A DNA stretch of 64,000 bases. It comes from Perkinsus marinus ATCC 50983. Lineage: Eukaryota > Perkinsozoa > Perkinsida > Perkinsidae. This document shows, in pieces, positions 1 through 53,318 of the stretch. A model generated the notes under the pieces. The model worked only from the letters and a program-made list of their open reading frames with translations. It was not told where the DNA came from and ran no database searches. The stretch covers positions 232,674 to 296,673 of the forward strand of contig NW_003214659.1 of the NCBI RefSeq assembly GCF_000006405.1, written 5' to 3'. Each line of letters opens with the position of its first letter. The stretch's first letter is position 1. The translations under genes were made by a program, and so were the position numbers.

Positions 1-1550
1 CCAGCTGGCGTAGCAGATCATTATGCGTTACCAGTGGCGGCCATTACCACTGCTGGGCTAGCGGTCGTCAGCTATTTCGTCTATCACAGATTTCGAAACC
101 AAAAACTCACCTCGGCGAAGGGCCACAGGGCTCTCCACAACCAATATGCGGGCTCACTAGCACCACGGCCAGACCTTTCCCCATTCACACTACCCAAATT
201 TCCCAACGGCGGCCTACGGCCGCCTACTACTCTCAGGATCCCAGTCAAGGGCTATACGACAATCAATTGCTTGTGGATTGTGCTACTGGAGTCAAAAGTG
301 AGCACAGAGTGACCCCGTTTTACAAATCGGACTCAAACATACGCAGGAATTGTTTGTACACTTGACCACTGACGTTATATCGGTGTGCTCTATCTCTAAA
401 AGCATCACTAATGCAAGATAGATCAAATGCGCAAGTGTTACACAGGCATGGGGATGCTACCCCTGCCGCGCTCAAGTTTCCTGCACTTTGCACAACCATT
501 GTCCTCGCACGCGTACGTAGGTTGAACGTTTCAGACTCTGAAATTCAGAGTCGTGCCGGAGAGACGGTGGGAAGCTATGTCGAAGTAGATTCGCATCTCT
601 CTGGATGTCAGCTTATGACCGCTCCTTGTTATTCTCTTCTCCGGTCCAGATAGACTGGTTCACTGTAAGCCATCGGATCCCTTTGTCAATCACCCTTTAC
701 CACCTGAGCATCAGTCAATGTAAGCGCATCACACATCTATGCAATAAAGTATTACATATCATCAGTATTTTCAGTGTAGAACAACTACGCAGGAACCAAT
801 TATACTGAGATTCTCCGGAGAGGGGTGTGATATGTCTAATCTACTGGACGTATATTTATTTCTCATCATAGCGTATATTTATTGATAATATATCATAAGC
901 TGTCCAAGGGTCATCTAAATCAGAGGGCTCTACTTGAGTGCAGGTATTGCTATATTCCTTTCGAGCAATTACAATCCATCACGCGATTAAGCGTGTTCTC
1001 TTGAGTGTTTAAACCTCATTTGGTAGCGCACCTGGGGTGCATCAGACTGATGCATCAGTGTTGAGACAATGCTCTGTGATACCTTCGTTTATATGTCCAG
1101 AACTCTGATCTCTACGAACTCAATACTGGATACTCTCAAACAGCAGTTACGTGCATGTATTTTAACACTTGTTGATTTTTTAGTCTGATTCGCCTTGAGT
1201 TTCTAGTAGTACGGAAATCTTCACGCAAGTCGGCACGTGAGTAGCGGGCCATTAGCCGGTTGGACAGCGATGCTAATCAGTGAGTTGGACGGCCGAATCA
1301 TTCCTCATGTACACTCGCGACACGTTTATACCGATAATCCTCCTAAGCACCGCAGTGATATTGTCATCAGTGGATTATCAGCTAGATTGCGCCAGCTCAT
1401 GATTCCTGGATCGAGGCAGTGAGTTTTGTGCCTCTGAGGGATCCCACTAGGTGGGACGTCCTTCACACCTGCGCGGTTTTCGTTGCTCTTGAACAATTGT
1501 CTTGTTGTTATCTGGGGGCAGTGAGTATCCCGGCAGTACATAGTAGTTAT
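1..1550. other. No confident gene
   Basis: No protein family is recognised here. A weakly protein-like frame (about 3-365) and a second open stretch (411-653) look like broken coding sequence. At 817-828 a purine run (GGAGAGGGG) is followed directly by TGTGATATG, the arrangement of a polypurine tract and 3' LTR start, so this may be the eroded end of an LTR retrotransposon. I found no matching LTR end or second LTR, so this is only a suggestion. Confidence 0.3.
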
Positions 1551-1789
1551 CTAAGTAAAGTCATATTATCTGTTATTGTCGTAGTAGCCCCAACCACACC
1601 CAAACCACTGTTGCTATTGCTGTGATAGCCCCAACTACTGCTGATGCTGTTGTAGTAGCCCAAACTACTGTTGCTATAGTCGTAGTGTCCCAAACCGCTG
1701 CTGATGTTGCTATTGTCGTAGTAGCCCAAACCACTGTTGTTTTACTGTTGTACTAGCCCCAACCACACCCAAACCACTGTTGCTATTGT

Positions 1790-2046
1790 TGTGATAGCCC
1801 CAACTACTGATGATGCTCTGATGATGCTCTGATGATGCTACTGATGACGCTACTGATGATGTAGCCTCTGTGCTGGAGCAACTGGCTCTGGTCCGGTTGA
1901 TGACACAAGACTGGTTGGTATGATGGGTATCTAACTGCCCCTTTGGGGTACATCTGACCGTAATACGCACATGGCGTCACGGTCTCTCTCTCTAGTTACA
2001 CACACACTGATGATGATGCTGTTGTAGTAGCCCAAACCACTGTTGC
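1790..2046. repeat. Non-minisatellite block, copy A
   Basis: A roughly 250-bp stretch of unique-looking sequence embedded in the minisatellite. It recurs almost identically exactly 1800 bp downstream (3601-3846), differing by one base in a C/T run and one extra 11-bp GATGATGCTCT unit. On the minus strand it holds an open frame rich in Pro, Gln and Tyr, which could be a captured exon. Confidence 0.8.
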
Positions 2047-3600
2047 TATTGCTGTAGTAGCTCAAAACACTGTTGCTATTGCTGTAGTAGCTCAAACCAC
2101 TGTTGCTATAGTTGTAGTAACCCGAACCGCTGCTGATGCTGTTGTAGTAGCCCGAACCACTGTTGTTATTGTTGTAATAGCCCCAACCACACCCGAACCA
2201 CTGTTGTTATTGTTGTAATAGCCCCAACCACACCCAAGCCACTGTTGCTATTGTTGTGATAGCCCCAACTACTGCTGATGTTGTTGTAGTAGCCCAAACC
2301 ACTGTCGCTATTGTTGTTATAGCCCCAACCACACCCAAACCACTGTTGTTATTGTTGTAGTAGCCCAAACCACTGTTGCTATTGTTGTAATAGCCCCAAC
2401 CACACCCAAGCCACTGTTGCTATAGTTGTAGTAACCCGAACCGCTGCTGATGCTGTTGTAGTAGCCCGAACAACTGTTGCTATTGTTGTTATAGCCCCAA
2501 CCACACCCAAACCACTGTTGTTATTGTTGTAGTAACCCAAACCACTGTTGTTATTGTTGTAGTAGCCCAAACCACTGTTGCTATTGTTGTAATAGCCCCA
2601 ACCACACCCAAGCCACTGTTGCTATAGTTGTAGTAACCCGAACCGCTGCTGATGCTGTTGTAGTAGCCCGAACAACTGTTGCTATTGTTGTTATAGCCCC
2701 AACCACACCCAAACCACTGTTGTTATTGTTGTAGTAACCCAAACCACTGTTGTTATTGTTGTAGTAGCCCCAACCACACCCAAACCACTGTTGTTATTGT
2801 TGTAATAGCCCCAACCACACCCAAACCACTGTTGCTATTGTTGTGATAGCCCCAACTACTGCTGATGTTGTTGTAGTAGCCCAAACCACTGTTGCTATTG
2901 TTGTTATAGCCCCAACCACACCCAAACCACTGTTGTTATTGTTGTAGTAGCCCAAACCACTGTTGTGATTGTTGTAATAGCCCCAACCACACCCAAACCA
3001 CTGTTGCTATTGTTGTGATAGCCCCAACTACTGCTGATGTTGTTGTAGTAGCCCAAACCACTGTTGCTATTGTTGTTATAGCCCCAATCACACCCAAACC
3101 ACTGTTGTTATTGTTGTAGTAGCCCAAACCACTGTTGTTATTGTTGTAGTAGCCCAAACCACTGTTGTTATTGTTGTAATAGCCCCAACCACACCCAAAC
3201 CACTGTTGCTATTGTTGTGATAGCCCCAACTACTGCTGATGTTGTAGTAGTAGCTCAAACAACTGTTGCTATTGTTGTTATAGCCCCAACCACACCCAAA
3301 CCACTGTTGTTATTGTTGTAGTAGCCCAAACCACTGTTGCTATTGTTGTTATAGCCTCAACCACACCCAAGCCACTGTTGTTATTGTTGTAGTAGCCCGA
3401 ACCACTGTTGTTATTGTTGTAATAGCCCCAACCACACCCAAACCACTGTTGCTATTGTTGTGATAGCCCCAACTACTGCTGATGTTGTTGTAGTAGCCCA
3501 AACCACTGTTGCTATTGTTGTTATAGCCCCAACCAGACCCAAATCACTGTTGCTATTGCTGTAGTAGCCCTAACCACAACCAAACCACTGTTGTTATTGT

Positions 3601-3846
3601 TGTGATAGCCCCAACTACTGATGATGCTCTGATGATGCTACTGATGACGCTACTGATGATGTAGCCTCTGTGCTGGAGCAACTGGCTCTGGTCCGGTTGA
3701 TGACACAAGACTGGTTGGTATGATGGGTATCTAACTGCCCTTTTGGGGTACATCTGACCGTAATACGCACATGGCGTCACGGTCTCTCTCTCTAGTTACA
3801 CACACACTGATGATGATGCTGTTGTAGTAGCCCAAACCACTGTTGC
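3601..3846. repeat. Non-minisatellite block, copy B
   Basis: Second copy of the block at 1790-2046. The exact 1800-bp offset indicates that a segment of the array was duplicated as a higher-order unit. Confidence 0.8.
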
Positions 3847-4535
3847 TGTTGCTGTAGTAGCCCTAACCACAACCAAACCACTGTTGTTATTGCTGTAGTA
3901 GTCCAAACCACCGTTGCTAGTGTTGTAGTAACCCAAGCCACTGTTGTTATTGTTGTAGTAGCCCAAACCACTGTTGTTATTGTTGAAGTAGCCCAAACCA
4001 CTGTTGTTATTGTTGTAATAGCCCCAACCACACCCAAGCCACTGTTGTTATTGTTGTAGTAGCCCAAATCACTGTTGCTATTGCTGTAGTAGCCCTAACC
4101 ACAACCAAACCACTGTTGTTATTGCTGTAGTAGTCCAAACCACCGTTGCTAGTGTTGTAGTCGCCCAAACCACTGTTGCTGTTGTTGTAATAGGCCCAAC
4201 TACACCCAAACCGCTGTTGTTATTGTTGTAGTAGCCCAAACCACTGTTGCTATTGTTGTTATAGCCCCAACCACACCCAAGCCACTGTTGTTATTGTTGT
4301 AGTAGCCCAAATCACTGTTGCTATTGCTGTAGTAGCCCTAACCACAACCAAACCACTGTTGTTATTGCTGTAGTAGTCCAAACCTCTGTTGCTAGCGTGC
4401 TGTCATCAGTAATGTAAGTTGATTGTTGCTGACCAAGGTGTTGTGTTGTAAATTATGATAATTTAATTATCAACTCGACCAGTTGAATCCATAAGTTCAA
4501 ATCTCACAAGCTTCGAGAACCTCAGTCAGCCTCAT

Positions 4536-7527
4536 ATGTATTCGCCTTCAGTTCGTGACATCAGGCTCATGAACCACCAACAAAGAGTTGCCTTGCGAGA
4601 AATTGTACATGACATCAAAAGCGGATCTGCTGCTTCCGGTAGGCATCATTTCATCACGGGCTTGGCGGGCTCTGGGAAAACGACTCTCCTCCGAGAGACG
4701 GTATCGAGATTGCGTGTGGACGGCTTCGATGTCTATGTAATATCGGCAACAGGATTAGCTGCCAATATCGCAAATGGTACGACTCTGATGGGCTTTTTTG
4801 GCTTGGAATTCGACACCAGTAACCACCAGCCTTTCGACAACTCGTATATGCGAGATGCGAACGAGGTGGCGACTCAAATGGAAGCAGGCTTACGTCGCAA
4901 GAAGTGCCTGAGCATATTCAACGTGGATAGGCCAACGATCCTAGCTTTTGACGAAGTTGTAACATTACATAATACGGTGCTCGAAGGCCTTGATATCCTT
5001 CTGCGGAAGGTCAGGCAAACACAGGTGGTTTTCGGTTCTGTTCCTTTCATATTCTGTGGGGATGTCCTACAGCTGCGTGGTGCCGAACCATCTCGTCATG
5101 GTATGTTTGGTGGGCTACCCGTACTTCCTGTGTGGGATTCGGCTGTGTGGAAGAAGCTTGACTTGAGGAAATATTACTTGACCTCATTTCTACGTGGATG
5201 CCGCGAAGTTCCTGAGAGCAGACCCGGATTGCGCGGAAGGCGGCCTCGGCCACGTGACGGAGTTGGGACTGACACAGACTACCTCACCTTATTGGCTGAA
5301 ATGAGGACTTTGGATGGGAATGCCTCGCTCTCCGAAAGGTCAGCAGAGCTGGTTTCTAAACTACAAGACCGCGAAGGTGAACACGAAGCAGGATGGACTG
5401 CTCTCTGCATCTATAGGAGCCGCGCTCATGCTATCAACGATAAGCATTTGGCGTCAATTGGTGAGCCTACCAGAACGTTCCAGGCTTCTGAGTCTTTCCT
5501 CGGAGACCCCGGTGAGTTCAGCGATAACTTTACTGTGAAGGGAGAAGTCAAACTGAAGAAGGGATGTCGGGCTTTAGTGAACACGAATATCCCGGGAATA
5601 GCTTTCAACGGCGACTTCGGAGAGGTAGTCGAGTTCGTCAATGCTGAACCTGGCGTCTCTATCATACCAGACGACCAAAGGCAACACCCGCGGGTCAAAA
5701 TTCGTTTGGACCGCACCGACGAGGTAGTGGAGATCTGTCCTTTACGACAAGAAGTCAAGGACGCCGATGGGAAGCTTCTGCTCCAGCGCACCAATCTTCC
5801 CCTGGAACTAGGCGCGGCAGTGACCTGCCATAAAGTCATAGGCTGCACACTAAGAGCCATAGTTGTTGACCTGGCTAAAGGTGATCCATTGCCGAGACAA
5901 GCTAGATCCATTCATAAAGATTTAGCGGTCTCCATGAACGAACCCTGGTTGCATGGGTGCCTATACACAATGATGACGCGAGTGGCATCTTCGAACTGCA
6001 TCTACCTCAAGTATGTTGGTACTAAGCAATTTTGTTCAAAAGTGCGGTATTCTCCATCTGCCAGGGTCTACGATGATCTATGTAAGCAGCAAGACAGGCT
6101 TCGATCCTCGGCGAATGGGGAGGGAGTATCGGAAACTCAGTCACCGCCATGTAGAGGGCAGGAGTCCAGGACAGATAGTGAGGATCGAGGCGGTAATTGG
6201 GTAGATATGTTGCGGTTTATGAGGGCTGAAATGCGACGACAAACTGAGCATTTGACGAAGGTGGTGCGGGATATAACCGTCAATGTTATGGTGAACGCCT
6301 CGCAAACCGGGTTGCTGGGCGATGTCGAAGCCGTCTCAGTGGGTGCGTCCGAGTATAATCAGCAACAGCGAGCTAGAGTTGATGCATTACTAGCCATGGC
6401 GAGAGAAAGGCATGGCAATTTCGTCTCTCTGCTGACAGCTCCCCCTGGGGACGCGCTAACAGAGGTCAACCGTCTTCAAGAGTATGCCCAGGGCAATCTC
6501 TATGCGTCGGCGGATACCAGAGCACCACCCAGTAACACGTCCTATACTCCTTTCCACGAAGGCTTTCAAGTGCATCGAGCCGGAGATCCAAGCGGTACTA
6601 TACGAGAGGATGCACTTTTTGCTCCTGAAGGTGACAACTCCGGAACTGCAACAGCATAACTGAACTCACCTTGCTGATTTCAGGCACTTCAGAATCAGAC
6701 AATATAATGCAAGAGAATGCAGCTGGGCCTGCACCTGGAGGTGACAACTACGGAACTGCAACGGCATAACAGAACTTACCTTGCTGATTTCAGGCACTTC
6801 AGAATCAAACAATACAATGCAAGAGGATGCAGCTGGGCCTGCAACTGAAGGTGACAATTACGGAACTGCAACGGCATAACAGAACTTACCTTGCTGATTT
6901 CAGGTACTTCAGAATCAAACACTACAATGCAAGAGGATGCAGCTGGGCCTGCAACTGAAGGTGACAATTACGGAACTGCAACGGCATAACAGAACTTACC
7001 TTGCTGATTTCAGGTACTTCAGAATCAAACACTACAATGCCAGAGGATGCAGCTGGGCCTGCACCTGAAGGTGACAACTACGGAACTGCAACGGCATAAC
7101 AGAACTTACCTTGCTGATTTCAGGCACTTCAGGATCAAACAATACAATGCAAGAGGATGCAGCTGGGCCTGCACCTGAAGGTGACAACTACGGAACTGCA
7201 ACGGCATAACAGAACTTACCTTGCTGATTTCAGGCACTTCAGAATCAAACAATACAATGCAAGAGGATGCAGCTGGGCCTGCAACTGAAGGTGACAATTA
7301 CGGAACTGCAACGGCATAACAGAATTTACCTTGCTGATTTCAGGCACTTCAGAATCAAACAATACAATGCAAGGAGATACAGTTGGATCTGCACCTGAAG
7401 GTGACAACTAGGGAACTGCACCAGCATAACGGGACGAACTTTGTTAATTTCAGCCATCTCGGAACCAGGCAATAGTATACAAGAAAACACAACTGGGCCT
7501 GGACCTGAAGGTGATAATCAGACATGA
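4536..7527 (+). CDS. PIF1-like SF1 helicase with tandem C-terminal exons
   Basis: An ATP-dependent 5'-3' DNA helicase of the PIF1 family. The first exon (4536-6630, 698 codons) carries Walker A GLAGSGKTT (residues 42-50), a motif Ia-like SATGLAANIA (about 70-79), Walker B ILAFDE (135-140), motif III CGDVLQL (174-180), HKVIGCTL near 432 (motif V/VI region) and YTMMTRVASS near 477 (the Arg motif). Unspliced, the frame stops at 6659. Splicing at GAAG|gtgac (6630) instead enters an array of 57-nt exons starting at 6684, 6794, 6904, 7014, 7124, 7234 and 7344, then a last exon at 7454-7527. All eight introns are exactly 53 nt and phase 1. The spliced product would be about 855 aa, with seven near-identical 19-aa repeats (GTSESNNTMQEDAAGPAPE type) before a diverged last one. 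The stop overlaps the transposase start as ATGA. The helicase call is secure. The spliced tail is inferred from perfect frame and splice-site conservation. Confidence 0.85.
6631..7510 (+). repeat. 110-bp tandem array, each unit one intron plus one exon
   Basis: Eight units with a strict 110-bp period. Each is a 53-nt segment starting gtgacaa and ending ttcag, with a branch-site-like cataac about 23 nt before the acceptor, followed by a 57-nt segment open in the helicase frame. Unit divergence is mostly a few substitutions. The first intron and the last unit are the most diverged, as expected for the edges of an array grown by unequal exchange. No unit has lost its GT, its AG or its frame. Confidence 0.9.
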
Positions 7528-10209
7528 AGAATATGAGGCAACATGGCAGCTTACCTTTGGATTGTAACTCAGATACCTCCTCCGAGGCCTCAGACGATAG
7601 CTGGGAAGGTGTCTCAGATGTATCCGATGGTCTTGAGCATGCTTTTAATGATCATGATATGTCACATACTCCAGATCCAAATGAACATCTCGGCGAGCAA
7701 GATCCCAAATGGGAACCCTTCGCATTCTATACGGAGCGGGGGGATCTTGACCATGTGGTTGTTGGATACCTCGAACGAAAACCCTTCTGGCGAAGATGCA
7801 AGAGCCGCTGGGAAAGTCGTTCACGATGCGAGCTGGTCTGTGCCCGGCGAGCATCAACGTCGTCGATCGCGCCTTCTTCTCGGCCACAACCCTCCTGGAG
7901 TTTGTGGCCTGAGGATACCTGTGACATGGCCTCCATCTTGGTCGTTCAGTCGGGGCCGACTACAAACATGTCTGAAATGAGATGTTACTTCTATGGCCTG
8001 AGAGCAGCAAGCAAGAGCCGACGAGAGTGGCTAGAGCACGCTCATCCATTCGGTACATTTGAATGTCGTTCATGCTCTATACCGCCCACTCTTGTTGACA
8101 TGGCCGCCGAGAGGCTTAGTGAGAACCCTACCGAGACGCCGGCATCGATAAGAACACTCTGGTATGAGCAACGGAGAAAAGGAGTTCTGAGTGACCGGGA
8201 TAGGCAGTGGCTTGATAAGCAGAATGATGATCCTCACCATCTGAACCTTCAAGGCAATGTGAGGAACATGATTAGCTCCATCACCAAGAGGAAGAAAGTG
8301 GGCCTTAACGTCGACGCCTTCCTCCAAGAAGTCCAGGCCTTGCGGAGCTCTGTGGATCCCCAGGTGGTTAGGAGCGTAGTGGACGCAATCCTTCGGTCTA
8401 ACGGTGGTTATGGGAGGCCTGGAGATGCACAGTTGCGGGACTTGGAGAATATGTGCATACCGACCAACGCGCCTGTAGTGTGCACTGAAAGTGGTACCAA
8501 TAAATTAAGCGTTATGGCGGTGAGCTTCACCAGTCCTCTCATGTTGGCGAATTACTTGTCGACGTCTAGGATTGGGCTCGACTGTACTTTTAATGTGGTA
8601 TCTGGGCGTTGCACCATATTATCAGTTGCCAGCATGCTTCCAGGAGGAGCATCAAAACCTATTCTCCTCTCTCTCATATTATCTGAGAGCGAAAGGAGCA
8701 TCACGGTGGCTCTGACACAGCTCCAGGATCTCGTATCCGAGATAGGCTTACCACCGCCTGTGATCACGCACATCATGCAGGATGGTTCTTCGGCTCTGAG
8801 GGCGGCGACAGAAACTATCTATGCTGGGGAAACTAGGCTTGCCATACAGTGCTGCTACTTTCACTTCATGCAGTGTCTGAAGAATAAGAAGGTCAATATG
8901 GCGAACTCGATGTGGCGAGCAATCAAGGACGACTTTCGACTAGTAGCTCTCGGGCACTCTCTTCACGAGTTTCGCATACTGAGATGGTTACTGAAGAAGA
9001 AGTGGGAAGATCTGGGTGACAGGGCAGCGCAGGGACTCCTCGAGGAGATTCAGAGAGGCGGTTGGCTCGACGACGGATCGTTCCGCTCTAGGTGGGGGTA
9101 TTGCTTCTCTGACCATCTGGGGGGGTAGAACAACAAATGGTCTCGAAAGCTTCCACAGAGTGATAAAAGATGCTATGTTGAAGCGTAAATGTACACTAAC
9201 TCTTCTGCAACTTATCTGGGCACTGAAGACGGCTGACTGGGAGCAAATCTCCGCTCATAATAAGACGGTAGCCACTCGTCGCGTGATCACGGACAGCGAT
9301 AAGAGAGAGTCGCTGCGATGCGGTCCATTTGCCAAGTTGAACCGTAACCTCCCAACTTCGCCGGTCTGGGACAGTTTGCCGGAAGATTTGCGAGGCTGCT
9401 CCAAACGAGGCTGCTCTGGTGGTAACAACTGTCGTAGGGTGAGCCACTTTTTGGGAGAGAAGAAGCAGCATTACCTATTCACAGAGCGTGATTCTTTCGG
9501 TGGCCTCTCCTCGAACGCCGAACTCGTTGAATTCGTGATGCAGGATCCCCGGGTGACGAGCCGGATTTCTGGTGCCTTTTCATCTCTAGCCGAGGCTAAA
9601 AAGTTCATCTCTTGCATTCACATTGTCTCTTATGAGTCGAGCACAGATCCGGCTTGCAGTGTGCTAGATGGTGGCCCCTACTGCACTTGCCTGGACTACA
9701 TCCACTCTGGGAAATGTATGCACATTGTCACTCTGCATCGGTACATTGGTGAAGATGAGGATGTAACCTGGCAAAGGCTCACGGCTCGAATGGAGCGTGC
9801 GTCAACTAGAGATCGTAACGGTCGAATTTCGCATACTCTACCATCGCAAACTCGATATGGAGTTGGTCGTTATCTGGGTGAACAGCGACGAACTGAACAA
9901 GCACAGGCACGCCAGCTTGGCTTAGACGAATTCGAGTGGCCACCGCACATCGCTCCTGCGGCCTGTTCCACCGACAAACGCACTTCGTTGACCAAAGTTG
10001 CTGGTTGCTGTGGTGGTATCTTTGACACTGACTCGGTGAAGTGCTCGAGTAGAAAGTGTGCTTCTGGTAGAGGATGGGCTCGGTGGTGGCATATAGACTG
10101 TGCAGAGGCATGGGCTCGAGCTTCCGGTATCGCACCTCCTGACGTTGCCGATGAGAAGTCAAGATGGTATTGCCCTCGATGTCAGCCGCCGAAGAGAAGA
10201 CGAGTGTGA
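7524..10209 (+). CDS. Mutator-like (MULE) transposase with SWIM and PHD fingers
   Basis: A DDE transposase of the Mutator superfamily. The N-terminal part is acidic and Ser-rich (residues 1-50). The catalytic core shows D353 in GLDCTFNV, D420 in IMQDGSS, the CYFHFMQCL motif near 447, and the Glu in NGLESFHR (codon 9145-9147). Next come a SWIM zinc finger (CTC...CMH, 9682-9725) and a C-terminal PHD finger (CC...C..C...HxxC...CPRC, about 10003-10190) with a basic tail (KRRR), a combination suggesting chromatin-guided targeting. The frame breaks at a run of seven G (9119-9125): frame 0 reads into TAG at 9126, and the catalytic Glu, SWIM and PHD lie in the +1 frame. One fewer G would give a continuous gene, so this is a sequencing error, a recent inactivating insertion or a +1 frameshift site. 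It lies directly behind the helicase. I found no terminal inverted repeats. Confidence 0.85.
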
Positions 10210-10531
10210 CTCATACTAGCTGAATGGTATCGATCAACCTCCAATAGGGAAACATTTTGATCCCTTGAGATTTCCCAAAAACATCCGTTAAGGATAATCG
10301 TTGTTATTGCTCGGAGTATTTGTAATTAAGCCGAGATGATAAGTTAGTGACTTGAAGTTACTGTTGGTAGCCTGGTTTAACCAGTAATGCAAAGGCTTCA
10401 CTAGCGTCCTATCATGCATCGTGTTGATACTGGCCCGTTTTGGATATTGCTGAGCGAGAATTCGTGGTGAGATCAGATAGCATCTGCCCTCACTATTGGT
10501 GACTCACGGAGTCGCATGAGCATCTCTGGGG
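10210..10531. other. Intergenic, nothing recognised
   Basis: AT-moderate sequence between the transposase stop and the scaffold gap. I looked for an inverted match to 4400-4535 as a transposon end and saw none. Confidence 0.5.
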
Positions 10532-10631
10532 NNNNNNNNNNNNNNNNNNNNNNNNNNNNNNNNNNNNNNNNNNNNNNNNNNNNNNNNNNNNNNNNNNNNN
10601 NNNNNNNNNNNNNNNNNNNNNNNNNNNNNNN
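10532..10631. other. Scaffold gap (100 N)
   Basis: Exactly 100 N, a conventional placeholder of unknown true length. It removes the 5' end of the ferredoxin-LRR gene. Confidence 0.99.
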
Positions 10632-13421
10632 TACTCATAAGAGCGTGTTGACTATGCTACAGCATCTGCGGATACCGATAGACAGTGAATGCGGTGGTAA
10701 AGGAGAATGCAAGCAGTGCACGGTAAGGCAGGGGTGAAGGCTCTCACCTGGTATCACCACCCATTGTAATGGGTCTGGTATAACGCTTATTTACTCATCA
10801 CGGACAATTTTATTCTGTTTCGTACTATAGGGCTTACGGGTATGCTTTTTACGGTATTGGAAGCGACGGCTTATGAGTCTCTATGTGTTTCTGTCGGCGG
10901 TCTACGGCATTTCTAGGTTGAATTTCGCGCGGTCTTGGTTAAGTTAGATCCTTAAATTCGCAAATAAAACGGAAGTAGCAATCATTTTCTTGAGATTTCA
11001 TCAAAAAAATTGGTAAAATGCTGAAGGTAAAACATTAACCGAATGAGTAAAAGAAATGAATTCGATCTGGAAATGTTGTATTTCTTAGATCAACGCTCTA
11101 GTATTGGGTCGAATCATAATGGTGATTGTTGATGACCTGGTAGGTACATTTCGATGGAGTGGAGGGCAACTTGCTGGCTTGCCAGACTCCTGCTGTCGCT
11201 GGGATGAACCTTGAGGTTGTACCCACAAAAAAGGAAGATACGGAACCGGCGAATCTCACGGAGGAGATGAAGGAGCCTGGTAGGGCAGCTAAGTATTTTG
11301 GAAGATACTATTAACAGTCAGTTGAGCTAAGGAGTTTTCTTATTGTCTATAGAAGTTTACATACGAATTCGGGTAGAAATGTACGGAAACAAGTAAGAAA
11401 TTTCCCGAATTTCCGCAGGTTTTTCCTCATATTGTCATCAGCATACGTAGTTAGCGATGTGCATATGTTTCCTCACACTTCGGCTCAGGTCAAATAGCGG
11501 ATTTCGTTATCGAGCAATGTGAAGATTGGCTGGGAGGATCCACTGAAGACTGTCTTGCTGTGCAGTATGATCTTTCGGGAAATGCCAAGAAATTTGCGGC
11601 GGGTTTAAACGACAAGATTGGCATGTAAGTTTATTCACACTACTCGTTGAAATGGAAAAATGTGAAACGGAAACGGAAAAAGTAGCGATCACTAGAAATT
11701 GAAATGGAAAAATGTCAATCAAAAACGGAAAAATTTCGATCACGAGAAATTGAAACGGCAATGTATGAACTTGAAGTGGCTATTCTTAGGGTAAATCGAG
11801 AGGAGGTGTAGATGAGGTATTTCAAATAGCAAATACCGTATTTGTTATGTTGTTGATCAGAAAGCGTATTGGACAGTTAATGGGGGGGAAGGCATTCATT
11901 CACGTTGATGCTAAGGACCTCACTGACATGGATGCTCTTGTTATTGCTAAGATGCTCCGGTACGATATCACCAGTCCGGCGTTGGAAGATGTGTTTTGTG
12001 TTAGATTCCAGAATGCTGACTGTGAAATGCTCGATATCAACAACAACCCACGTATGGGTGACCTTGGAGTGAAGGCCATAGCTGAGCATGTAAAAAGAAG
12101 GGTAGGGTATGTGAAAAAAAGTGTATGGGAATTATCCGGAATATGTGAGAGTATCTAAAGGTTGATTGTGAAAGATTCAGAGTAGGTTCTGATGAACTCG
12201 TCAGCACGCGTCGGCTTTCCTCAGCTCAAGTTTGTAGTTTTATTTAGTAATTATAGAAGTTTACATGCGAATTTGACTAGAAGGGTACAGAAATCTGCTA
12301 AAAATTGCAAAAAAGTGTAAGAATTTTCCTCAGAGTTTTCCTATTGTCATCAACATATGAGGTTCGCCGCGTGCATATTTCCCCGCACTGCCAGGATAGG
12401 TGTTATGTGTATTGGTGTAGGTTTTGGGGCGGGCTAGCAATGGGCATCCCTTGGAGACTTTGCTCATATCAGGAGTTAATATGACTGATGAGGGACTAGG
12501 TGAGATATGTCGGGTGCGGGGATCGAACCGGGGATCTCCCGGATGGAAGTTCGTTAGCTGTGTTCTTGTTGTCAGGGTACATCACCGAGGCGCTGAAGAC
12601 GAATAATAAATTGCGATTGTTGGAGATGCGGAAGAACAAACTAACCGACGAGGGTGTCGTTGCTTTAGCCAAGGTATTAATTGTTAGAGTCATACCGCAT
12701 CTAGCTCAACCTGTATTGGATTGGAAGTGGTGGTATCGTGGTCAATACTCCTTAACAGTGCTAGGCTCTTGGGTCTACTGTCATGCTTATCACACTGTTA
12801 TGCTACTACTGCTACTGTCTTCTGTGATGCCTGACTCGTAGCATGTGCTAGGTTTATAATTATGCTCATCACATGTTGTACTGAGTTGGTTCTGGATTTC
12901 TTTCTGGGCTTTTACTTGAACTTTAGGGGGAATAAGGGGGGCATTGTTACGGTCAGGTTCTCAAGGAGGATAACACTACACTGGAGTCTCTGTATTTGAA
13001 TGCTAACCCGGGTCTTACGGATGTCTCTGTTGAGGTGCTTGCTGATGCTGTGGCTGCCCGTAAGGGCAAACTGAAGGTCAGTGTGGAAAATATGCATATG
13101 GTCAACTACGTGTGTTGGTGATAATGTGAAAATTCGGAGGAAATTTTGGGAAATTTTTTATTGGTTTCTGTGTACTTCTACCCGAATTCGTGTGTAAATT
13201 TTGATAACAACTTGAGAAACTGCTGAGCTCAGTTGAGGAAAGTGAATAAATATTCCAACACTGGTGAAGATAGGCTCTAGCGTTACAATGGCAGATCAAA
13301 ATGACTGTGAGAGCGCTCAGTTGATGGTGTGTTGCAGGTTATCCTTCTGGACTGCGAGAACATTAGTTTTTCGGCGAGGGCTCGCGCGATGGCTCGTTGT
13401 GGAAAGAAGATGCGGTTCTGA
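10632..13421 (+). CDS. [2Fe-2S] ferredoxin domain fused to leucine-rich repeats (5' partial)
   Basis: Eight exons with consistent phases: 10632-10722, 11144-11279, 11489-11624, 11861-12106, 12438-12499, 12576-12673, 12957-13076, 13338-13421. Exons 1-2 give a plant-type ferredoxin cluster site, CGGKGECKQC then LLACQTP, with the four Cys that bind [2Fe-2S]; the spacing resembles the ferredoxin domains of multi-domain reductases. Exon 3 is a linker. Exons 4-7 hold ribonuclease-inhibitor-like repeats (NPRMGDLGVKAIAEH, LLEMRKNKLTDEGVVALA, LYLNANPGLTDVSVEVLA). The family function is unknown: an iron-sulfur electron carrier joined to a protein-binding scaffold is my reading. Introns 2, 4 and 7 each contain a family-1 element. 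The start is lost in the gap. The join depends on splice phases and has no transcript support, but every junction keeps frame. Confidence 0.65.
11310..11480 (+). mobile_element. MITE family 1, copy 1 (intron 2 of ferredoxin-LRR gene)
   Basis: Matches the family core (GAATTCGGGTAGAA, then TTCCTCA...GTTAGCGATGTGCATA). It makes up most of the intron 11280-11488. The left end is decayed. Confidence 0.8.
12200..12398 (+). mobile_element. MITE family 1, copy 2 (intron 4 of ferredoxin-LRR gene)
   Basis: Contains CTTTCCTCAGCTCAAG, TATAGAAGTTTACATGCGAA and GTGCATATTTCCCCGCAC in family order. Confidence 0.8.
12518..12529 (-). other. tRNA T-arm-like (B-box) motif inside an intron
   Basis: GGTTCGATCCCC on the minus strand, within a 76-nt intron (12500-12575) of the ferredoxin-LRR gene. 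Only a 3' half-like sequence is visible, with no matching acceptor or anticodon arm, so this is not called a tRNA gene. Confidence 0.4.
13081..13263 (-). mobile_element. MITE family 1, copy 3 (intron 7 of ferredoxin-LRR gene)
   Basis: Complete copy, GTGTGGAAAATATG...CCAACACTG, starting 4 nt after the splice donor. Flanks CTGAAGGTCA / GTGAAGATAG resemble a decayed target duplication. Confidence 0.88.
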
Positions 13422-14209
13422 GTTCATTATTGTGAAAATACCAATGTGCCTGAGTTTCTTTCCCTACTTTTTAGATGAGTTGGTTGGTCAGTTGGGCTCT
13501 CACTAAAACGAACCGAGTTCGATTCCTGGTCTTGGCATATATCATTTTACAATGACTACACTGCGAGGTATATGGTAACAAACCATGAATCGGTTTTTCC
13601 CAGCAGTTTTCTGTTATCCGTCTCGCATCCCCTTTCATCCTTATGGCCCGACACGAGATGGCAGGGGAAGGTAGTATCGGGAGAGTTAACAGTACGGAAA
13701 AAATATGCTCACTCGGAGGTGTTCACGACCTTGTATGGTTCTAGGGTTCTGCTGGTTACGAGTCGTCGCTATTTGATATCATGAAATAAAAATTCGCGAC
13801 GGCATTCTTTTTTCGTTCTAAATTGGTTATTTTTTTTAGAAAATGTTCGCATTAGGACCATTCTCCTAATGCGATTTTCCAAAGCTAAATGGGTCCCAGG
13901 TTCATAGGGGGCAGCCCTTGAGGTCGAAAATGAAGCCTGAATATAGGAAAGGCTTGGACGTAGGGTGTACCTCTCCTGGTTGGATGCGACCATAGCATGT
14001 AACAATTTGTTCAACCGAGGTCGGAGGTTCGATCCCACCATCCGGCGTTTTTCCCCCAAATGTCTGAGGCACTTAAAAGGAACCAGTGATCTATGAAGTC
14101 GAGCTTGTGCCAACCTGTGCTTTGTGATAGCGCCTATTTATTGATATTATGTGAAGCACTTGATTGAGCTCATCGTAGTTTTATCAACTTCATAGGAGTC
14201 CATAAGGGA
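13422..14209. other. Intergenic with two tRNA-like 3' halves
   Basis: No gene is recognised. GAGTTCGATTCC (13515-13526) and GGTTCGATCCC (14026-14036) resemble tRNA T arms. The second is followed by TTTTT at 14048 and could pair an 8-nt acceptor (GTTGGATG with CATCCGGC), but no normal D arm or anticodon arm forms in the 68 nt between. These look like degenerate tRNA-derived sequences. Confidence 0.4.
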
Positions 14210-14641
14210 ATGTCATTTTCTTTAATACGGAGCATGAGCCCTGTGCTGGCGAGTATTTCCACGCCTGCCTTCCTGAGTACGCACCTGGCCAAGCTCAACC
14301 GGGCGTTCCATGTGGATGCTGCTGCGGCTAAGGGCCTTCCTAGTGTTAATATCACCTTTGTCGATCCCGATGGGAGTAAGAAGGTCGCGAAGGCTCCCAT
14401 TGGGTGGTCGTTGTTGGATGTGGCCCATCTGAATGATGTTGAGCTTGAGGGCGCTTGCGAGGTGAGGGAGATTTGCTATCTCAATAGAGCAGATTTATTT
14501 CAGGGGCAAATGGCATGTTCTACTTGCCACTGTATTCTATCGCAAGATCTTTTCGATAGCCTTCCTGAACCCACTGATGAGGAGGAGGATTTGCTCGATC
14601 TCGCACCGGGCTTGGAGGACACTAGTCGTCTGGGATGCCAG

Positions 14642-14690
<49 letters not shown>

Positions 14691-14819
14691 ATGGTAGCGT
14701 ATAGTAGATTTTGTGGGCTTCAGGTTAAAGTAACAGAAGATATGGACGGCCAAGAGGTGAAGCTACCAGCGTCAACGGTGAACTTCTACGTCGATGGTCA
14801 CAAGCCTACTCCTGACTAG
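14210..14819 (+). CDS. Mitochondrial [2Fe-2S] ferredoxin (adrenodoxin/Yah1 type)
   Basis: Electron carrier for mitochondrial iron-sulfur cluster assembly. Exons 14210-14461, 14504-14641 and 14724-14819 give 161 aa. An N-terminal presequence-like region (residues 1-45, basic and hydroxylated) precedes VNITFVDPDGSKK. The cluster ligands are the Cys of EGACE at the end of exon 1, CSTC in exon 2 (MACSTCHCIL) and the Cys of RLGCQ. The acidic LPEPTDEEEDLLDLAPGL segment and the C-terminal VKVTEDMDGQEVKLP...NFYVDGHKPTPD are adrenodoxin signatures. Intron 2 begins with about 16 copies of GTA, so many tandem GT donors exist. Using a later one would insert valines in frame. The start chosen is the first ATG of the open exon. 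Confidence 0.93.
14642..14690 (+). repeat. (GTA)n microsatellite at a splice donor
   Basis: About 16 uninterrupted GTA units start exactly at the donor of adrenodoxin intron 2. Read through, they encode polyvaline before a stop at 14702-14704. Confidence 0.95.
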
Positions 14820-16391
14820 AGCCCCTGTTTTTCCTCAAGGGCCTCATGGAAAAACTGTCCGACCGATCCTAATTGCTAGACTGTCATCGTGTTTAATTTG
14901 CTTCAGTAATCTCACTTTGGGTTGATTTTACACGGGGAAAAACTTCCTTTTCCTGTCGTTCTATAACCGTTCGGGTCTATGATACTACACACGCTTTAGT
15001 GGAGTATAGGATGAGGGGCCTGAGTGGAGCGTTTAGGGGGTCAGTATTGGATTGCTTATTACGGTATGGCGGCTAGGCTTTGGGAGGCACTTGTACTCTC
15101 CCTGGTGATGCTGTCGATGGTAGTGTTGAATGGTAGATCGTTATGCGAATAACGGTTGCTCAGCCGGAAAAAAATCCAATTGCGGCATCCGTTTTTCGGG
15201 TAGTTCTAGGAGAGTCTCTTTCGACAAGGTCATTCGCGTTCGATCAATGTTGGGCTTTTTGATAGTCAAGTTTTCGCTCCTGTCGATGCTCACCCGACCT
15301 CCCGAGTGGCACCACGTACTTCGAGCCACATATCGAGGATGTTGTTGTAGTAGTAGTAGCATGGTGGCGAGCTCCCAAGAAGGAGGCTCAAGACCAACAC
15401 ATAGATGGAAGCTGCCTATTGCTGGCGAGGTCCTGTATCATCGTTTAAACAGGGCTTAATCCTTGTGTATAGGTACGGCAACGGAGTCGAGCGCGAGTGC
15501 TGCCGAGCTATCCATCGTACGATAGTGTTGGGATAACTGAGTTTATCGATATGCAGCGCATCGGGGGTCGCGTCAAAGTGAAGGTGACGTCAAAGTGCAC
15601 GAAAATTATGAGAAAATTTGGGAAATTCTTGTGGGTTTCTGAACATTTCTAAACGAGTACTTGTATAAACTCCTATAATTAGTGAGGAAACTCCCGAGCT
15701 CAGCTGAGGAAAATGAACATAGATTGATTCTGTAAATTCATCGACTGCACTCTTTGGAGCAACGATATACATACTTGGGGTTTTCGAGGAGAGATCCACG
15801 ACTATTCTGTATCGGGTAATGTGTGTTGAATGTCTTCTTCACGTCACTAGACGCAGCCTGAATCGATGTGGAACAGGCAGTCCGGGTTCGATCCCCGGCA
15901 CGGGCTTTTTTCCAGAATATTTTTGCTTTTCTAAAAGTCATAGTTTCGGTAATTGTTATAGGATCGGGAGAAGGATCAACTACGTATTAGACAAGCAAAG
16001 ACGCGTTCCGTAATATATCACAATATATCGGCGCAGTAGTGGAGGACTAACTTCGTACAAAGCAATGCACGGAAAAAGTCACAAGTGTTATACTGAGTTC
16101 ACTGCGGTAGAACTCAACTTGTAAGATTCCAGCGGGTGCGTAGCCATACATTGATCAAGAGCGAGGCAAGGACAGGTGGTGAATACTAGAGTAATGAGAT
16201 GAAGAGAAAGAGGAGCTGACAGTTACATCATCAGGGGAATAGCTCAACAATATGTAACCGTTAACACAATCCACTCGACACGAGGCGTGAATAACTCATT
16301 TACGTTACTTGTAGTATTACAGAATATACGAATATCTAACACAACTCAGCTGAGGGACAACTGTACTGCAAACGGGACAGTCTTAAAAAAA
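14820..16391. other. Intergenic, mostly unassigned
   Basis: No protein family is recognised. It holds one family-1 element (15594-15735) and a perfect T-arm-like stem-loop (CCGGGTTCGATCCCCGG, 15882-15898) followed by CACGGGC and T6 at 15906, again without a matching 5' tRNA half. Confidence 0.5.
15594..15735 (-). mobile_element. MITE family 1, copy 4 (intergenic)
   Basis: Partial copy with CTCCTATAATTAGTGAGGAAA and GAGCTCAGCTGAGGAAA. It is the only copy clearly outside a gene model. Confidence 0.8.
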
Positions 16392-50600: not shown

Positions 50601-53318
50601 GAGTACGCCATGGCAGGCAGGATTATACTGAGGACAGCGATCCGAGAAGGCGTCAAGATGGATGACCCGCTGAATCTTGAGTTGGTTCGACGAGCGGAGA
50701 TCCTCCAGACTATGGTGGCCAGAGCTGACAATTACGGGAGATATGTGCCCGGTGACACAGTTATCGTTGCAAGTGATGCTTCTGCGATAGGCTGGGGAGT
50801 GGTGGCCACGAACCTCGAGGGCCAGCGGTTATGTGCTAAGGCTGCTCTCCATGATGCAGCACATGAGCGTTGGAGTATACCGAGGCTAGAGTTATATGCA
50901 ATTCTAGAGGCTAAAAAGATGGCACTTTGGCTATTGACCGCTGACCCCAAGACAAGAAGGGTAGTTGTCCTGAGTGACAGCTCTATCAACGTTCAGAGAG
51001 TGGTTAACACTGGTGCTATCTCGACGAAGATCTGTGCATGGGATATCCGAGCTATTCAGCACCTACGTGAATGGGTTAGCGACCCGGATAGCCCAGTAAT
51101 AATTGGGCACATTGCCGGAAGGTTGAATCCATCTGACAGTGCATCTCGAGGCATGGTACCGCCGTCTTCTATCTCGGAGGAATACAGATGTTATGTGCGA
51201 GGCCTAGACGAGCGGTTTGATGAGCTCAAAGAGAGACTGGTTACCGGCAAGCTCCCTCCTATGAATGGGTTGTATGCAATTCAGGTTGGTTCGGATCATG
51301 GTCAAACTGATGACGGTTCGAGTCGAGTGCCTGAGGTTGGTTCGGATCATGGTCAAACTGATGACGGTTCGAGTCGAGTGCCTGAGGTTGGTTCGGATCC
51401 TGGTCACACTGATGACGGTTCGAGTCGAGTGCCTGAGGTTGGTTCGGATCATGGTCAAACTGATGACGGTTCGAGTCGAGTGCCTGAGGTTGGTTCGGAT
51501 CCTGGTCACACTGATGACGGTTCGAGTCGAGTGCCTGAGGTTGGTTCGGATCCTGGTCACACTGATGACGGTTCGAGTCGAGTGCCTGAGGTTGGTTCGG
51601 ATCCTGGTCACACTGATGACGGTTCGAGTCGAGTGCCTGAAGTTGGTTCGGATCCTGGTCACACTGATGACGGTTCGAGTCGAGTGCCTGAAGTTGGTTC
51701 GGATCCTGGTCACACTGATGACGGTTTGAATCGAGCAGTTGATGCTGGACTTCAGACTACGACGGCAGATAAAAGAAGTCATGCTGCTGATCGCAAGGAT
51801 ATTGGATTAGTTCAAAAGGTGGTTGACTCCCAGGCCAAGGATAGATTCTGTCAAATGGTCCTGTCGGTATTGCGCCATGAACCGACTTCCCTCTCTTCAA
51901 CGGAAAGCTCTCGCCTGAGGCGCTCGTATGTAGAGAATGATGATGTCATCTACAGGATAAATCCTGTAGACAATGAGCAGATTCTGGTGCCGGAGGAAAT
52001 GAGAAGAGTGGCCTTTAGTATGGTGCATGATCTTTTCGCTCACTGTGGAACCGGTAAACTTTATGCGATTCTCACAAAGGACTATGGACTCTGGTGGCCG
52101 AAGATGACGAAGAATATTCGCCAGTGGACACGAGCTTGTACAACTTGTGTAATGACACATTCTCGCAGGCAGGAGCCGGCGAGAGCCTATGGAACCTCCC
52201 TGAAGTCTGGTCAACTCTGGGAGGTCCTGGCTATCGATATCGGAGGCCCGTATCTTGGCTCAACTATAGCTCCAGATCGTGCGGCGGAAGATCCATCGGA
52301 GGAAACACCTTACATGTACTCGTTGATAGCTACTGAAGCAGTCACTCGTTATATGGTTACTACGCCTTTAAGGAGGAAGACAAGTGAGTGTATTGCCGAT
52401 GCGCTGGAGTCATTATGCTGGCAATTTGGATTTCCGGTGGTATTGTGTCACGATCGAGATGTCTCTTTGATGGGTGGTGCCGTGAAAAAGTTCGTCGAGA
52501 AGTACGGGATCCGACAAGTGCCAAACCCGCCATATGCTCCTATTCGAGCCTTCTGGGAACCTTCACACCATCTGCTCCATTTGGCATTGAAGCATCTTAT
52601 GCGTGCGGCGCGAGCTCCCACTGACTCCTGGCCGAGGTTCTTGCAACATGCTACTTGGGTTGTTAACAATTCTGTCCTTCCTCTGAGCGGAATTTCTGGT
52701 GAACGGGTGACAGCGTGTGAGTTGGTTCGGTTATGTGGATCCTGCCCTCCTCCTTGTTATCGGGCTTCATGTGTGCTTTCGAAGGAGGCCCAGGCTTACA
52801 GCGAAAGACGGGGTATTGATGGTACCTCTAAACCGGCTCAAGCTCGACGACGTTTAGCACACCGGAATAAAATGGAAGGCACCCTTCAGAACTATTTGAG
52901 GCAGTGGGATGACCACCGTGCACAGTTGGTGGATAAGATGAACAGTTCTCGTCGGCGACGTGGTACTCCCGAGGGACATGTGAAGGTTGGTGATGTGGTG
53001 CGAGTATTCAAGCCTCATCACAAGCTCCAATCTATGTGGTCCGAGGCTCTCTACATGGTAGACGATATACGGGGTGAAATTGCAAGCCTAAGAAATCATT
53101 CCGGTGAATTAAGTGTACAATTTTTATTCAATTTAGCTGTTGCTACCGATGTGGATCCCACCGAGTTGACCTTCTGTGCGAGGCCTACTGGGTTTAGGGC
53201 CCATAATTCTACTGTCTCTGTTCCTGTGTATCAACCCAGTAAGGTTGATCAAAGTAAAGCGCGATTAGAGCGGCGAGAGCGTAGAGCTGCTCTTAGTGCT
53301 GGGGCCGGAGAATGCTGA
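47496..53318 (+). CDS. Gag-pol polyprotein of the LTR retrotransposon
   Basis: 1940 aa in one frame. A Gag-like N-terminal third is followed by three CX2CX4HX4C zinc knuckles (residues 389-450: CLRCAKPRHRASRC, CQKCGCRGHSTKSC, CARCGVQGHTPAIC). Then come retropepsin (LLDTGAAASFV, catalytic D551), reverse transcriptase (FSRLDLEKAF, then SFMDDIAQG with the catalytic Asp pair at 936-937) and RNase H (IVASDASAIGWGV, about 1094; SIPRLELYAILEAK; VVLSDSS). Nine 17-aa repeats (1264-1416) precede the integrase, with an HHCC zinc region (about 1511-1550) and the catalytic D near 1581, D near 1653 and E in FWEPSHH (about 1688). Translation starts inside the 5' LTR and the stop (53316-53318) lies in the first bases of the 3' LTR. 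Gag and pol share one frame without a shift or stop, so the Gag:Pol ratio must be set otherwise. Confidence 0.95.
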   Translation: MRLSLTSMTPPLASTSQRTTRASSRTRSQPPRTHAVSSSNLSDITDGEIQHYHPRNELDVFKDLVEERMTGVTDALATLTSLVTTLQEQGARTRSERSPSVQGATPEVFDGSVVPRRRGGKPFPEILTAVRKAGRLHSGEYKGSTDPRCLDEFLRELSVDLTFSAGSDSWRLAVLLQNLSHGVRAQVLRSYEERHNGSLPLHIESFEHADIYARVMAILRVAYTSPADRRRLINKFHNLTIDAPTVRGDIDEYDYAFDLLRVEIEAATDQIMTTDTVIAHYLRGLTEEVQQFAEVHLAGITDFGLFKQSIRRYWRVNHPDSKVKGAQRGRSIGLNEVSTPSDPTCAVIGEGGSNVSHSHKSNGDNHPKLVFPCGQGCGHGVLAEHRQDCLRCAKPRHRASRCRQSTPIDVALRCQKCGCRGHSTKSCVVQRIESTMCARCGVQGHTPAICPAPAPRQSSPAPGLANNATTGVAAQGVSEANLLIYPEYSDGFNDTAGFCHAISVETVPGACCTIDDTRTHVYGALRAELRLLPCPDSGTEMTATSVVVLLDTGAAASFVRRSFLQEIRQHVWDRREVQAVHVRCANGSLLDTRVQVLLKVSHGGTIYAGWFYVCEDLSSAIICGMDTLQALSMTIRLSPTVVEATVRAAQGGQQPISCCGIAPYIRGSSLKEINELLLAMADRNEVNCRKYGQDTWLGSSTGNCEDVEIQLESQGEDGTLLGMVEEIVVIPGAASEREVIKRHMHQIPWASSDRPDREASLIRAHRSSIALENRLRKTPEALEACDSQVRMLVDRGFARQAKVEEIKHAYALLLVKSPSSSTPLRLVLDGRSLRGYALAGRILDRSVTRPLMTIRRFRYFSRLDLEKAFYALGVVSSDAAMQGFYWRGTWYILLRAGMGLPSSPSMLQTSLHITQASYVEHSKWSNEEYAICSFMDDIAQGADTAVVRDELAISYSEHLRKNGFTEQVKKRLQNEPSGEVAPLEASLFGLLWLSGPDELTMKALPCLKMAADNTLTLRRYLSWLNSHFDPLGLWVEYAMAGRIILRTAIREGVKMDDPLNLELVRRAEILQTMVARADNYGRYVPGDTVIVASDASAIGWGVVATNLEGQRLCAKAALHDAAHERWSIPRLELYAILEAKKMALWLLTADPKTRRVVVLSDSSINVQRVVNTGAISTKICAWDIRAIQHLREWVSDPDSPVIIGHIAGRLNPSDSASRGMVPPSSISEEYRCYVRGLDERFDELKERLVTGKLPPMNGLYAIQVGSDHGQTDDGSSRVPEVGSDHGQTDDGSSRVPEVGSDPGHTDDGSSRVPEVGSDHGQTDDGSSRVPEVGSDPGHTDDGSSRVPEVGSDPGHTDDGSSRVPEVGSDPGHTDDGSSRVPEVGSDPGHTDDGSSRVPEVGSDPGHTDDGLNRAVDAGLQTTTADKRSHAADRKDIGLVQKVVDSQAKDRFCQMVLSVLRHEPTSLSSTESSRLRRSYVENDDVIYRINPVDNEQILVPEEMRRVAFSMVHDLFAHCGTGKLYAILTKDYGLWWPKMTKNIRQWTRACTTCVMTHSRRQEPARAYGTSLKSGQLWEVLAIDIGGPYLGSTIAPDRAAEDPSEETPYMYSLIATEAVTRYMVTTPLRRKTSECIADALESLCWQFGFPVVLCHDRDVSLMGGAVKKFVEKYGIRQVPNPPYAPIRAFWEPSHHLLHLALKHLMRAARAPTDSWPRFLQHATWVVNNSVLPLSGISGERVTACELVRLCGSCPPPCYRASCVLSKEAQAYSERRGIDGTSKPAQARRRLAHRNKMEGTLQNYLRQWDDHRAQLVDKMNSSRRRRGTPEGHVKVGDVVRVFKPHHKLQSMWSEALYMVDDIRGEIASLRNHSGELSVQFLFNLAVATDVDPTELTFCARPTGFRAHNSTVSVPVYQPSKVDQSKARLERRERRAALSAGAGEC
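51285..51743 (+). repeat. Nine 51-bp tandem repeats within pol
   Basis: Each unit encodes VGSD(H/P)G(Q/H)TDDGSSRVPE. Two variants, HGQ and PGH, occur in the order HHPHPPPPP; the last unit ends GLNRA. The array lies between RNase H and integrase. Because 51 is divisible by three, other frames on both strands also stay open, so the long antisense frame here is an artefact. Confidence 0.97.

Follow-up and report, generated by a model that had tools for sequence, protein, structure and literature searches.

Eight tandem predicted intron-exon modules in a probable PIF1-like helicase/MULE transposase gene of Perkinsus marinus

An array of eight head-to-tail 110-bp units in Perkinsus marinus ATCC 50983 is probably the spliced linker region within one long PIF1-helicase/MULE gene belonging to a Mutator-like DNA transposon. 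The array occupies 6631-7510 of the analyzed window, a stretch of 64,000 nucleotides of contig NW_003214659.1 (positions 232,674 to 296,673 of the forward strand). Tandem Repeats Finder reported it at 6620-7514, with a period of 110, 8.1 copies, 92% matches and 0% indels. An earlier note on this DNA had divided the array into exon-intron modules of 53 and 57 nt, and its coordinates were found to be exact to the base. The features of the predicted gene and of its upstream region are as follows.

1599 to 4394, plus strand: degenerate nested tandem repeats of 30, 41, 71 and 172 bp with short gaps, covering nearly 2.8 kb directly upstream of the helicase start
4536 to 6630, plus strand: predicted first exon, with a PIF1-like helicase domain (Pfam PIF1) and a low-complexity tail
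6631 to 6683, plus strand: predicted intron 1, 53 nt (splice model)
6684 to 6740, plus strand: array exon 1, 57 nt, 19 residues (open phase-1 frame)
6741 to 6850, plus strand: unit 2, predicted intron 6741-6793 and exon 6794-6850 (splice model)
6851 to 6960, plus strand: unit 3, predicted intron 6851-6903 and exon 6904-6960 (splice model)
6961 to 7070, plus strand: unit 4, predicted intron 6961-7013 and exon 7014-7070 (splice model)
7071 to 7180, plus strand: unit 5, predicted intron 7071-7123 and exon 7124-7180 (splice model)
7181 to 7290, plus strand: unit 6, predicted intron 7181-7233 and exon 7234-7290 (splice model)
7291 to 7400, plus strand: unit 7, predicted intron 7291-7343 and exon 7344-7400 (6 changes relative to the consensus)
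7401 to 7510, plus strand: unit 8, the most diverged, predicted intron 7401-7453 (10 changes) and exon 7454-7510 (16 changes)
7511 to 7572, plus strand: predicted intron 9, 62 nt, with its donor in the array register (splice model)
7573 to 9125, plus strand: MULE transposase part (Pfam MULE), in frame with the helicase after predicted splicing
9121 to 10209, plus strand: C-terminal part, frameshifted relative to the MULE part, with a presumed catalytic Glu (NGLESFHR), a SWIM-like CxC...CxH and a PHD-like Cys/His cluster (by eye)

Module structure and predicted splice sites

Each array unit consists of a 53-nt segment that begins with GT and ends with TTTCAG, followed by 57 nt with an open phase-1 frame, and these three properties were found in 8 of 8 units. 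The 53-nt segments start at 6631, 6741, 6851, 6961, 7071, 7181, 7291 and 7401. The phase-1 symmetry and the frame-breaking period proposed earlier were thereby confirmed in every unit, the exon length of 57 nt being a multiple of three whereas the unit length of 110 bp is not. One exon encodes 19 residues, acidic and rich in Ser/Thr. When the eight 53-nt segments are removed, the helicase frame runs to a TGA at 7525-7527, and if predicted intron 1 is retained, an in-frame TAA at 6657-6659 stops this frame, as had been anticipated for unspliced transcripts. Overall, a predicted exon and its predicted intron are repeated head to tail within one gene, in eight units, which is the arrangement of a tandem exon duplication.

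Splice-site quality was evaluated using weight matrices built from 21 introns that we inferred elsewhere in the same genome, in three CCT chaperonin genes and in a gene of the window that we take, by eye, to be a ferredoxin. These introns were placed by eye through the continuity of conserved protein sequence, not from cDNA, and they are not all independent, because two of the CCT genes (L053 and L054) are very similar and their introns are partly the same. The training set left out gaps such as those at profile positions 106-98 and 226-216 of L053 and 292-289 of L055; an intron of the paralogous locus L042 was kept out, and the proteasome genes were likewise unused. The ferredoxin-like gene also carries a perfect (GTA)16 microsatellite (14642-14690) that begins exactly at an inferred intron donor. 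The training introns measured 42-82 nt (42-56 nt in 20 of the 21), and the lengths of the array introns and of the ninth intron (53 and 62 nt) fall inside this range. Perkinsus genes are described as having GT-AG introns of 39-1622 bp, mostly shorter than 100 bp (PMC3101222), and GT-AG ends were present in 9 of 9 predicted introns.

The donors of the eight array introns ranked at 98.6-99.3% among the 4,254 GTs of the window's plus strand, and their acceptors at 98.4-99.7% among the AGs of the same strand. For intron 9, the donor ranked at 99.8%, the best of the nine, and the acceptor at 94.2%. As a scale, in a leave-one-out test the training introns ranked at 45-100% (donors) and 70-100% (acceptors). 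The array donor GTGACG also occurs in two CCT training introns; without these two, array donors 1-8 still ranked at 92.6-94.8% and donor 9 at 99.8%. The predicted donor is the sole GT in units 1, 2, 5 and 6, while units 3, 4 and 7 contain one extra GT each and unit 8 contains two.

Using dynamic programming, the optimal path from the helicase to the MULE part contained nine introns, the eight of the array and 7511-7572, at all six penalties. With the end phase left free, all three start frames led to the same nine introns; one additional upstream intron was needed in two of the frames, and the helicase frame scored best. Among 300 arrays built from dinucleotide-shuffled units, none reached the score of the real path (best 14.1 vs 68.2) and a single one contained eight or more periodic introns. 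Taken together, the ranks and the shuffled arrays indicate good splice sites in the array, which is predicted from their quality to be spliced.

The ninth predicted intron and the probable fusion with a MULE transposase

The earlier note had placed the array at the end of a helicase gene, and this position was not supported. The next ORF after the array encodes a MULE-type transposase, and within predicted intron 9 (7511-7572) lie the TGA at which the helicase apparently stops (7525-7527) and the ATG with which the MULE ORF apparently starts (7524). The nine predicted introns total 486 nt, a multiple of three, and their removal gives a single open frame from the helicase to the MULE. Since splicing of predicted intron 9 would eliminate the apparent stop and join helicase and MULE ORF in frame, and since two paralogs carry the C-terminal half of the helicase and the MULE in one ORF, the array is probably not at the gene end and would be an internal helicase-transposase linker rather than a helicase tail. 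The donor register, followed in the earlier note as far as unit 8, continues to a ninth donor at 7511. We considered intron 9 as a clear ninth unit and rejected this: the donor register fits, but the similarity to the array intron is weak (equally good in 62 of 2000 shuffles and in 52 of 1576 window stretches).

The helicase part matches Pfam PIF1 at residues 12-181 (E-value 5.6e-17; 62.5 bits against a cut-off of 25.9) and contains the Walker A motif GLAGSGKTT. The sole database relative of the helicase ORF is the P. chesapeaki protein FOL47_001425 (P0001), with 85% identity over 62%, and its listed sequence departs from that of the window before the linker. With 25.8 bits, the MULE part in the window falls slightly short of the Pfam cut-off of 27.6, which a P. 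olseni relative (P0002) passes with 32.9 bits; the MULE part is 68% identical to the paralog L042 and 44% identical to P0002. Its motifs DCTFN and QDGS presumably hold the first two catalytic acids. A CxxH signature, of the form given in PMC10045372, is present as CYFH at residues 444-447 and is invariant in the three aligned proteins. In the C-terminal part with the SWIM-like and PHD-like motifs, Pfam finds nothing at an E-value of 0.1.

In the window copy, the MULE frame is broken within a homopolymer run at about 9120-9126. A near-identical protein from the MULE search (P0003), which differs at 1 of 436 residues, reads uninterrupted across this position, so intact versions exist. The window copy may be dying, or the break may be a polymorphism or an assembly error. 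The helicase search yielded P0001, the MULE search P0002 and P0003, and a further protein search no match; none of these database proteins shows the array.

We searched the genome (54.46 Mb, 347 contigs) for paralogous loci and found helicase relatives at 21 places and MULE relatives at 20, figures that include the window copy and take each piece of a split gene separately. Eleven paralogous regions were fetched, eight of which match both the helicase and the MULE. Seven of these (L042-L048) were examined for fusion, leaving out the fragmentary L049; L050-L052 match the helicase alone. At two of the seven loci (L043 and L045), the C-terminal half of the helicase and the MULE share one ORF, the N-terminal halves of the helicase sitting upstream in other frames, and by eye Asp, Glu, Ser and Thr are abundant in the open linkers. 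Stops lie between the helicase and the MULE at five loci (L042, L044, L046, L047 and L048), of which L046 and L047 count as one observation because they are inverted copies of each other on contig C266, 99.8% identical. On this contig, a segment of at least 9.8 kb carries the PIF1-MULE gene twice, inverted and a few kb apart, and the match nearly spans the fetched stretches.

At L042, the closest paralog, a predicted intron of 64 nt (4615-4678), picked by the splice model at all three penalties, would place the helicase in frame with an acidic stretch that resembles the MULE N-terminus by eye. The other introns placed at this locus vary with the penalty. About 870 bp (4849-5723) lie between the MULE N-terminus and the MULE core of L042 and are absent from the window copy; they would be a further intron or an insertion to be bridged before the MULE core. 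A short match, PEGTS, is continuous in L042 and corresponds to PEG/TS across the predicted junction of the window gene. Among the paralog linkers, those of L042, L044, L046 and L048 were submitted to the splice model, leaving out those of L043, L045 and L047, and the linker scores were low: positive at one of three penalties for L042, and negative for L044, L046 and L048 (one penalty each).

One relative, on contig C60 (C60:519277-528195; L056 and L048), is flanked by 509-bp inverted repeats that are 99.6% identical. A 10-bp direct repeat, CCCATGTAAG, lies six bases outside one arm and seven bases outside the other, and target duplications of 4-10 bp are given for MuDR and IS256 (PMC10045372). 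The helicase match of this copy contains a stop. The C60 copy spans about 8.9 kb and bears a PIF1-like helicase; as judged from these repeats, it is apparently a young Mutator-like element. An inverted-repeat search at L042-L046, L048 and the window detected long flanking arms at C60 only. Round the window copy, no inverted repeats were found within 1-15000, a stretch in which an N run (10532-10631) could hide sequence. The only inverted pair detected, at about 11318-11412 and 13142-13236, was rejected as the ends of the window element, as both of its arms are downstream of the gene. The block of degenerate tandem repeats upstream of the helicase (1599-4394) is possibly part of the element.

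Unit variation, proposed mechanism and rival explanations

Units 2-6 are identical to each other at 105-110 of 110 positions. Unit 7 shares 100-101 of 110 positions with them, unit 1 shares 98-101, and unit 8 shares 80-85 with any other unit, a pattern as expected for an array homogenised in its middle. The observation that splice sites and frame are intact throughout the array holds in 8 of 8 units; as evidence of selection it is weak, given how similar units 2-6 (105-110 of 110 positions in common) and units 2-7 (100-110) are. We looked in the eight units for purifying selection acting on the repeat peptide and found none. Changed exon codons comprised 5 synonymous vs 25 nonsynonymous cases, with an expected synonymous fraction of 0.23. 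Exons vary more than introns, with differences from the consensus at 35 of 456 exon sites and 18 of 424 intron sites (Fisher p 0.034, an optimistic value because the units share ancestry and are not independent). The 10 changes of the unit 8 intron all spare its first six and last six bases (chance 0.057). This variation suits a linker that is free in sequence with splicing kept, and it suits a non-coding array equally, which is mainly why we hold the linker reading no higher than probable.

We propose the following mechanism. In the encoded protein, a PIF1-like helicase would be joined to a MULE transposase, and a SWIM finger and a PHD-like C-terminus are presumed. A short phase-1 intron and the 57-nt exon following it would have been amplified as a unit to give eight modules, the array growing probably by unequal crossing-over or slippage between the CCTGAAGGTGA repeats at the exon-intron borders. 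The pre-mRNA would then be spliced nine times, removing 8 x 53 nt and 62 nt, and every module would add 19 residues of an acidic, Ser/Thr-rich and probably disordered linker, whose exact sequence would matter little. The unit is frame-neutral because it carries its own intron: unspliced, its 110 bp break the frame, and spliced, it adds 57 nt. A frame-breaking minisatellite could in this way expand harmlessly in a coding region, each unit bringing its intron. We computed that the frame stays open when array exons 1-7 are skipped (6631-7453 as one intron) and when the whole array is skipped (6631-7572 as one intron); by arithmetic, any subset of array exons could in principle drop out in frame. 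It is conceivable, though we regard it as doubtful, that linker length is tuned by a hypervariable "spliced minisatellite", in which copy number among strains and exon skipping would give a frame-correct ladder and retention of an array intron a helicase-only protein. The array would also be a compact natural test of splicing with eight near-identical introns and exons, for the order of intron removal, skipping and circular RNAs.

The rival explanations bear on the gene boundary, on coding, on the strand and on the origin of the modules. The helicase could end at the array, either at 7525-7527 when spliced or at 6659 when unspliced, and the MULE could be a separate gene that starts at ATG 7524. 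This ATG opens the MULE ORF and overlaps the stop of the spliced helicase, and the stops between the two domains in 5 of 7 paralogous loci point in the same direction. However, the single ORF of the helicase C-terminal half and MULE at L043 and L045, the in-register donor 9 with the best rank of the nine (99.8%) and a fusion that is in frame after predicted splicing argue for one gene, and we consider separate genes unlikely. A non-coding minisatellite, located in a 3' UTR or between genes, untranslated, and with a splice-competent look that is accidental or left over from a single intron, would account for the lack of codon-level constraint and for exons more variable than introns, in a window with other tandem repeats (30 Tandem Repeats Finder rows, several per array). 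Such a minisatellite is hard to reconcile with the splice score, which 0 of 300 shuffled-unit arrays matched, or with the fusion frame and the structure of the paralogs, and it appears quite improbable to us.

Splicing of the array might also take place on the minus strand, in an antisense or non-coding transcript. A single unit was scored on that strand: its GTAAGT donor ranked at 99.9% and its TCAG acceptors at 98.6% and 96.4%, yet the minus-strand path is irregular and scores 30.4-31.1 vs 68.2 on the plus strand, and a 45-nt minus-strand intron leaves a 65-nt exon that shifts the frame, with a stop in one frame by eye; we give this possibility very little weight. Repeated insertion of introner elements, instead of local tandem duplication, has a precedent in the repeated mobile introns of the dinoflagellate Amoebophrya (PMC7789003). 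Here, the intron motif (up to 3 mismatches) had 7 matches in the genome, all within the array, against 0 for a control pattern, and the exon is duplicated along with the intron. Introners are defined by the same intron at many unlinked sites, and we rejected this assignment for a motif confined to the array, such an origin being extremely improbable. Overall, a spliced linker within one helicase-transposase gene remains our preferred reading.

Comparison with known systems

The predicted gene resembles Mutator-like elements (MULE/MuDR) in its MULE domain, which is weak in the window protein, in the CxxH signature and in the long inverted repeats and 10-bp direct repeat of the C60 copy. It differs from them in the fused N-terminal PIF1-like helicase and in the PHD-like tail. 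Helicase-encoding DNA transposons, AcademH and KolobokH, have been reported, with target duplications of 9-10 bp for AcademH (PMC10799480, PMC10045372); as presented there, they likewise bear a helicase and belong to transposase superfamilies other than MULE. A Pif1-like helicase is also placed in Helitrons (PMC8504770). In titles and abstract beginnings of the open-licence literature, we found no description of a PIF1-MULE fusion polypeptide and, for Mutator elements in Perkinsus, no match to this case. With one relative lying between near-identical inverted repeats, the predicted PIF1-helicase/MULE-transposase fusion may represent a kind of transposon so far undescribed.

Coding minisatellites, such as those of mucin-type and other repeat proteins, stay in frame because their unit length is a multiple of three. 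The array shares with them the head-to-tail near-identical units, the low-complexity peptide and edges more diverged than the middle; in contrast, its 110-bp unit is not divisible by 3 and the frame is restored by splicing only. The window itself contains about nine copies of a 51-bp repeat (51283-51735), encoding a 17-residue repeat in a 1,940-residue ORF that looks by eye like a retrotransposon polyprotein. This repeat keeps the frame by its period, without introns, and is a natural contrast to the 110-bp array. Schistosome micro-exon genes contain runs of short, symmetric and freely skippable exons that differ from each other, whereas the array repeats intron and exon as one unit.

Tandem exon duplication is well known, for example in the Dscam1 clusters (PMC9013439), and the array is similar in that an exon and its intron are duplicated in tandem within a gene. 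Tandemly duplicated exons are described as often mutually exclusive (PMC9013439), whereas the array consists of eight near-identical, short, frame-neutral modules, minisatellite-like and located in a transposon gene. For exon-plus-intron repeat units, nothing resembling the array was present among the matches listed from titles and abstract beginnings of the open-licence literature. Overall, the array is real and, as a tandem exon duplication, of an unusual kind; it represents a special case of known processes and sits in a copy that is possibly degenerating.
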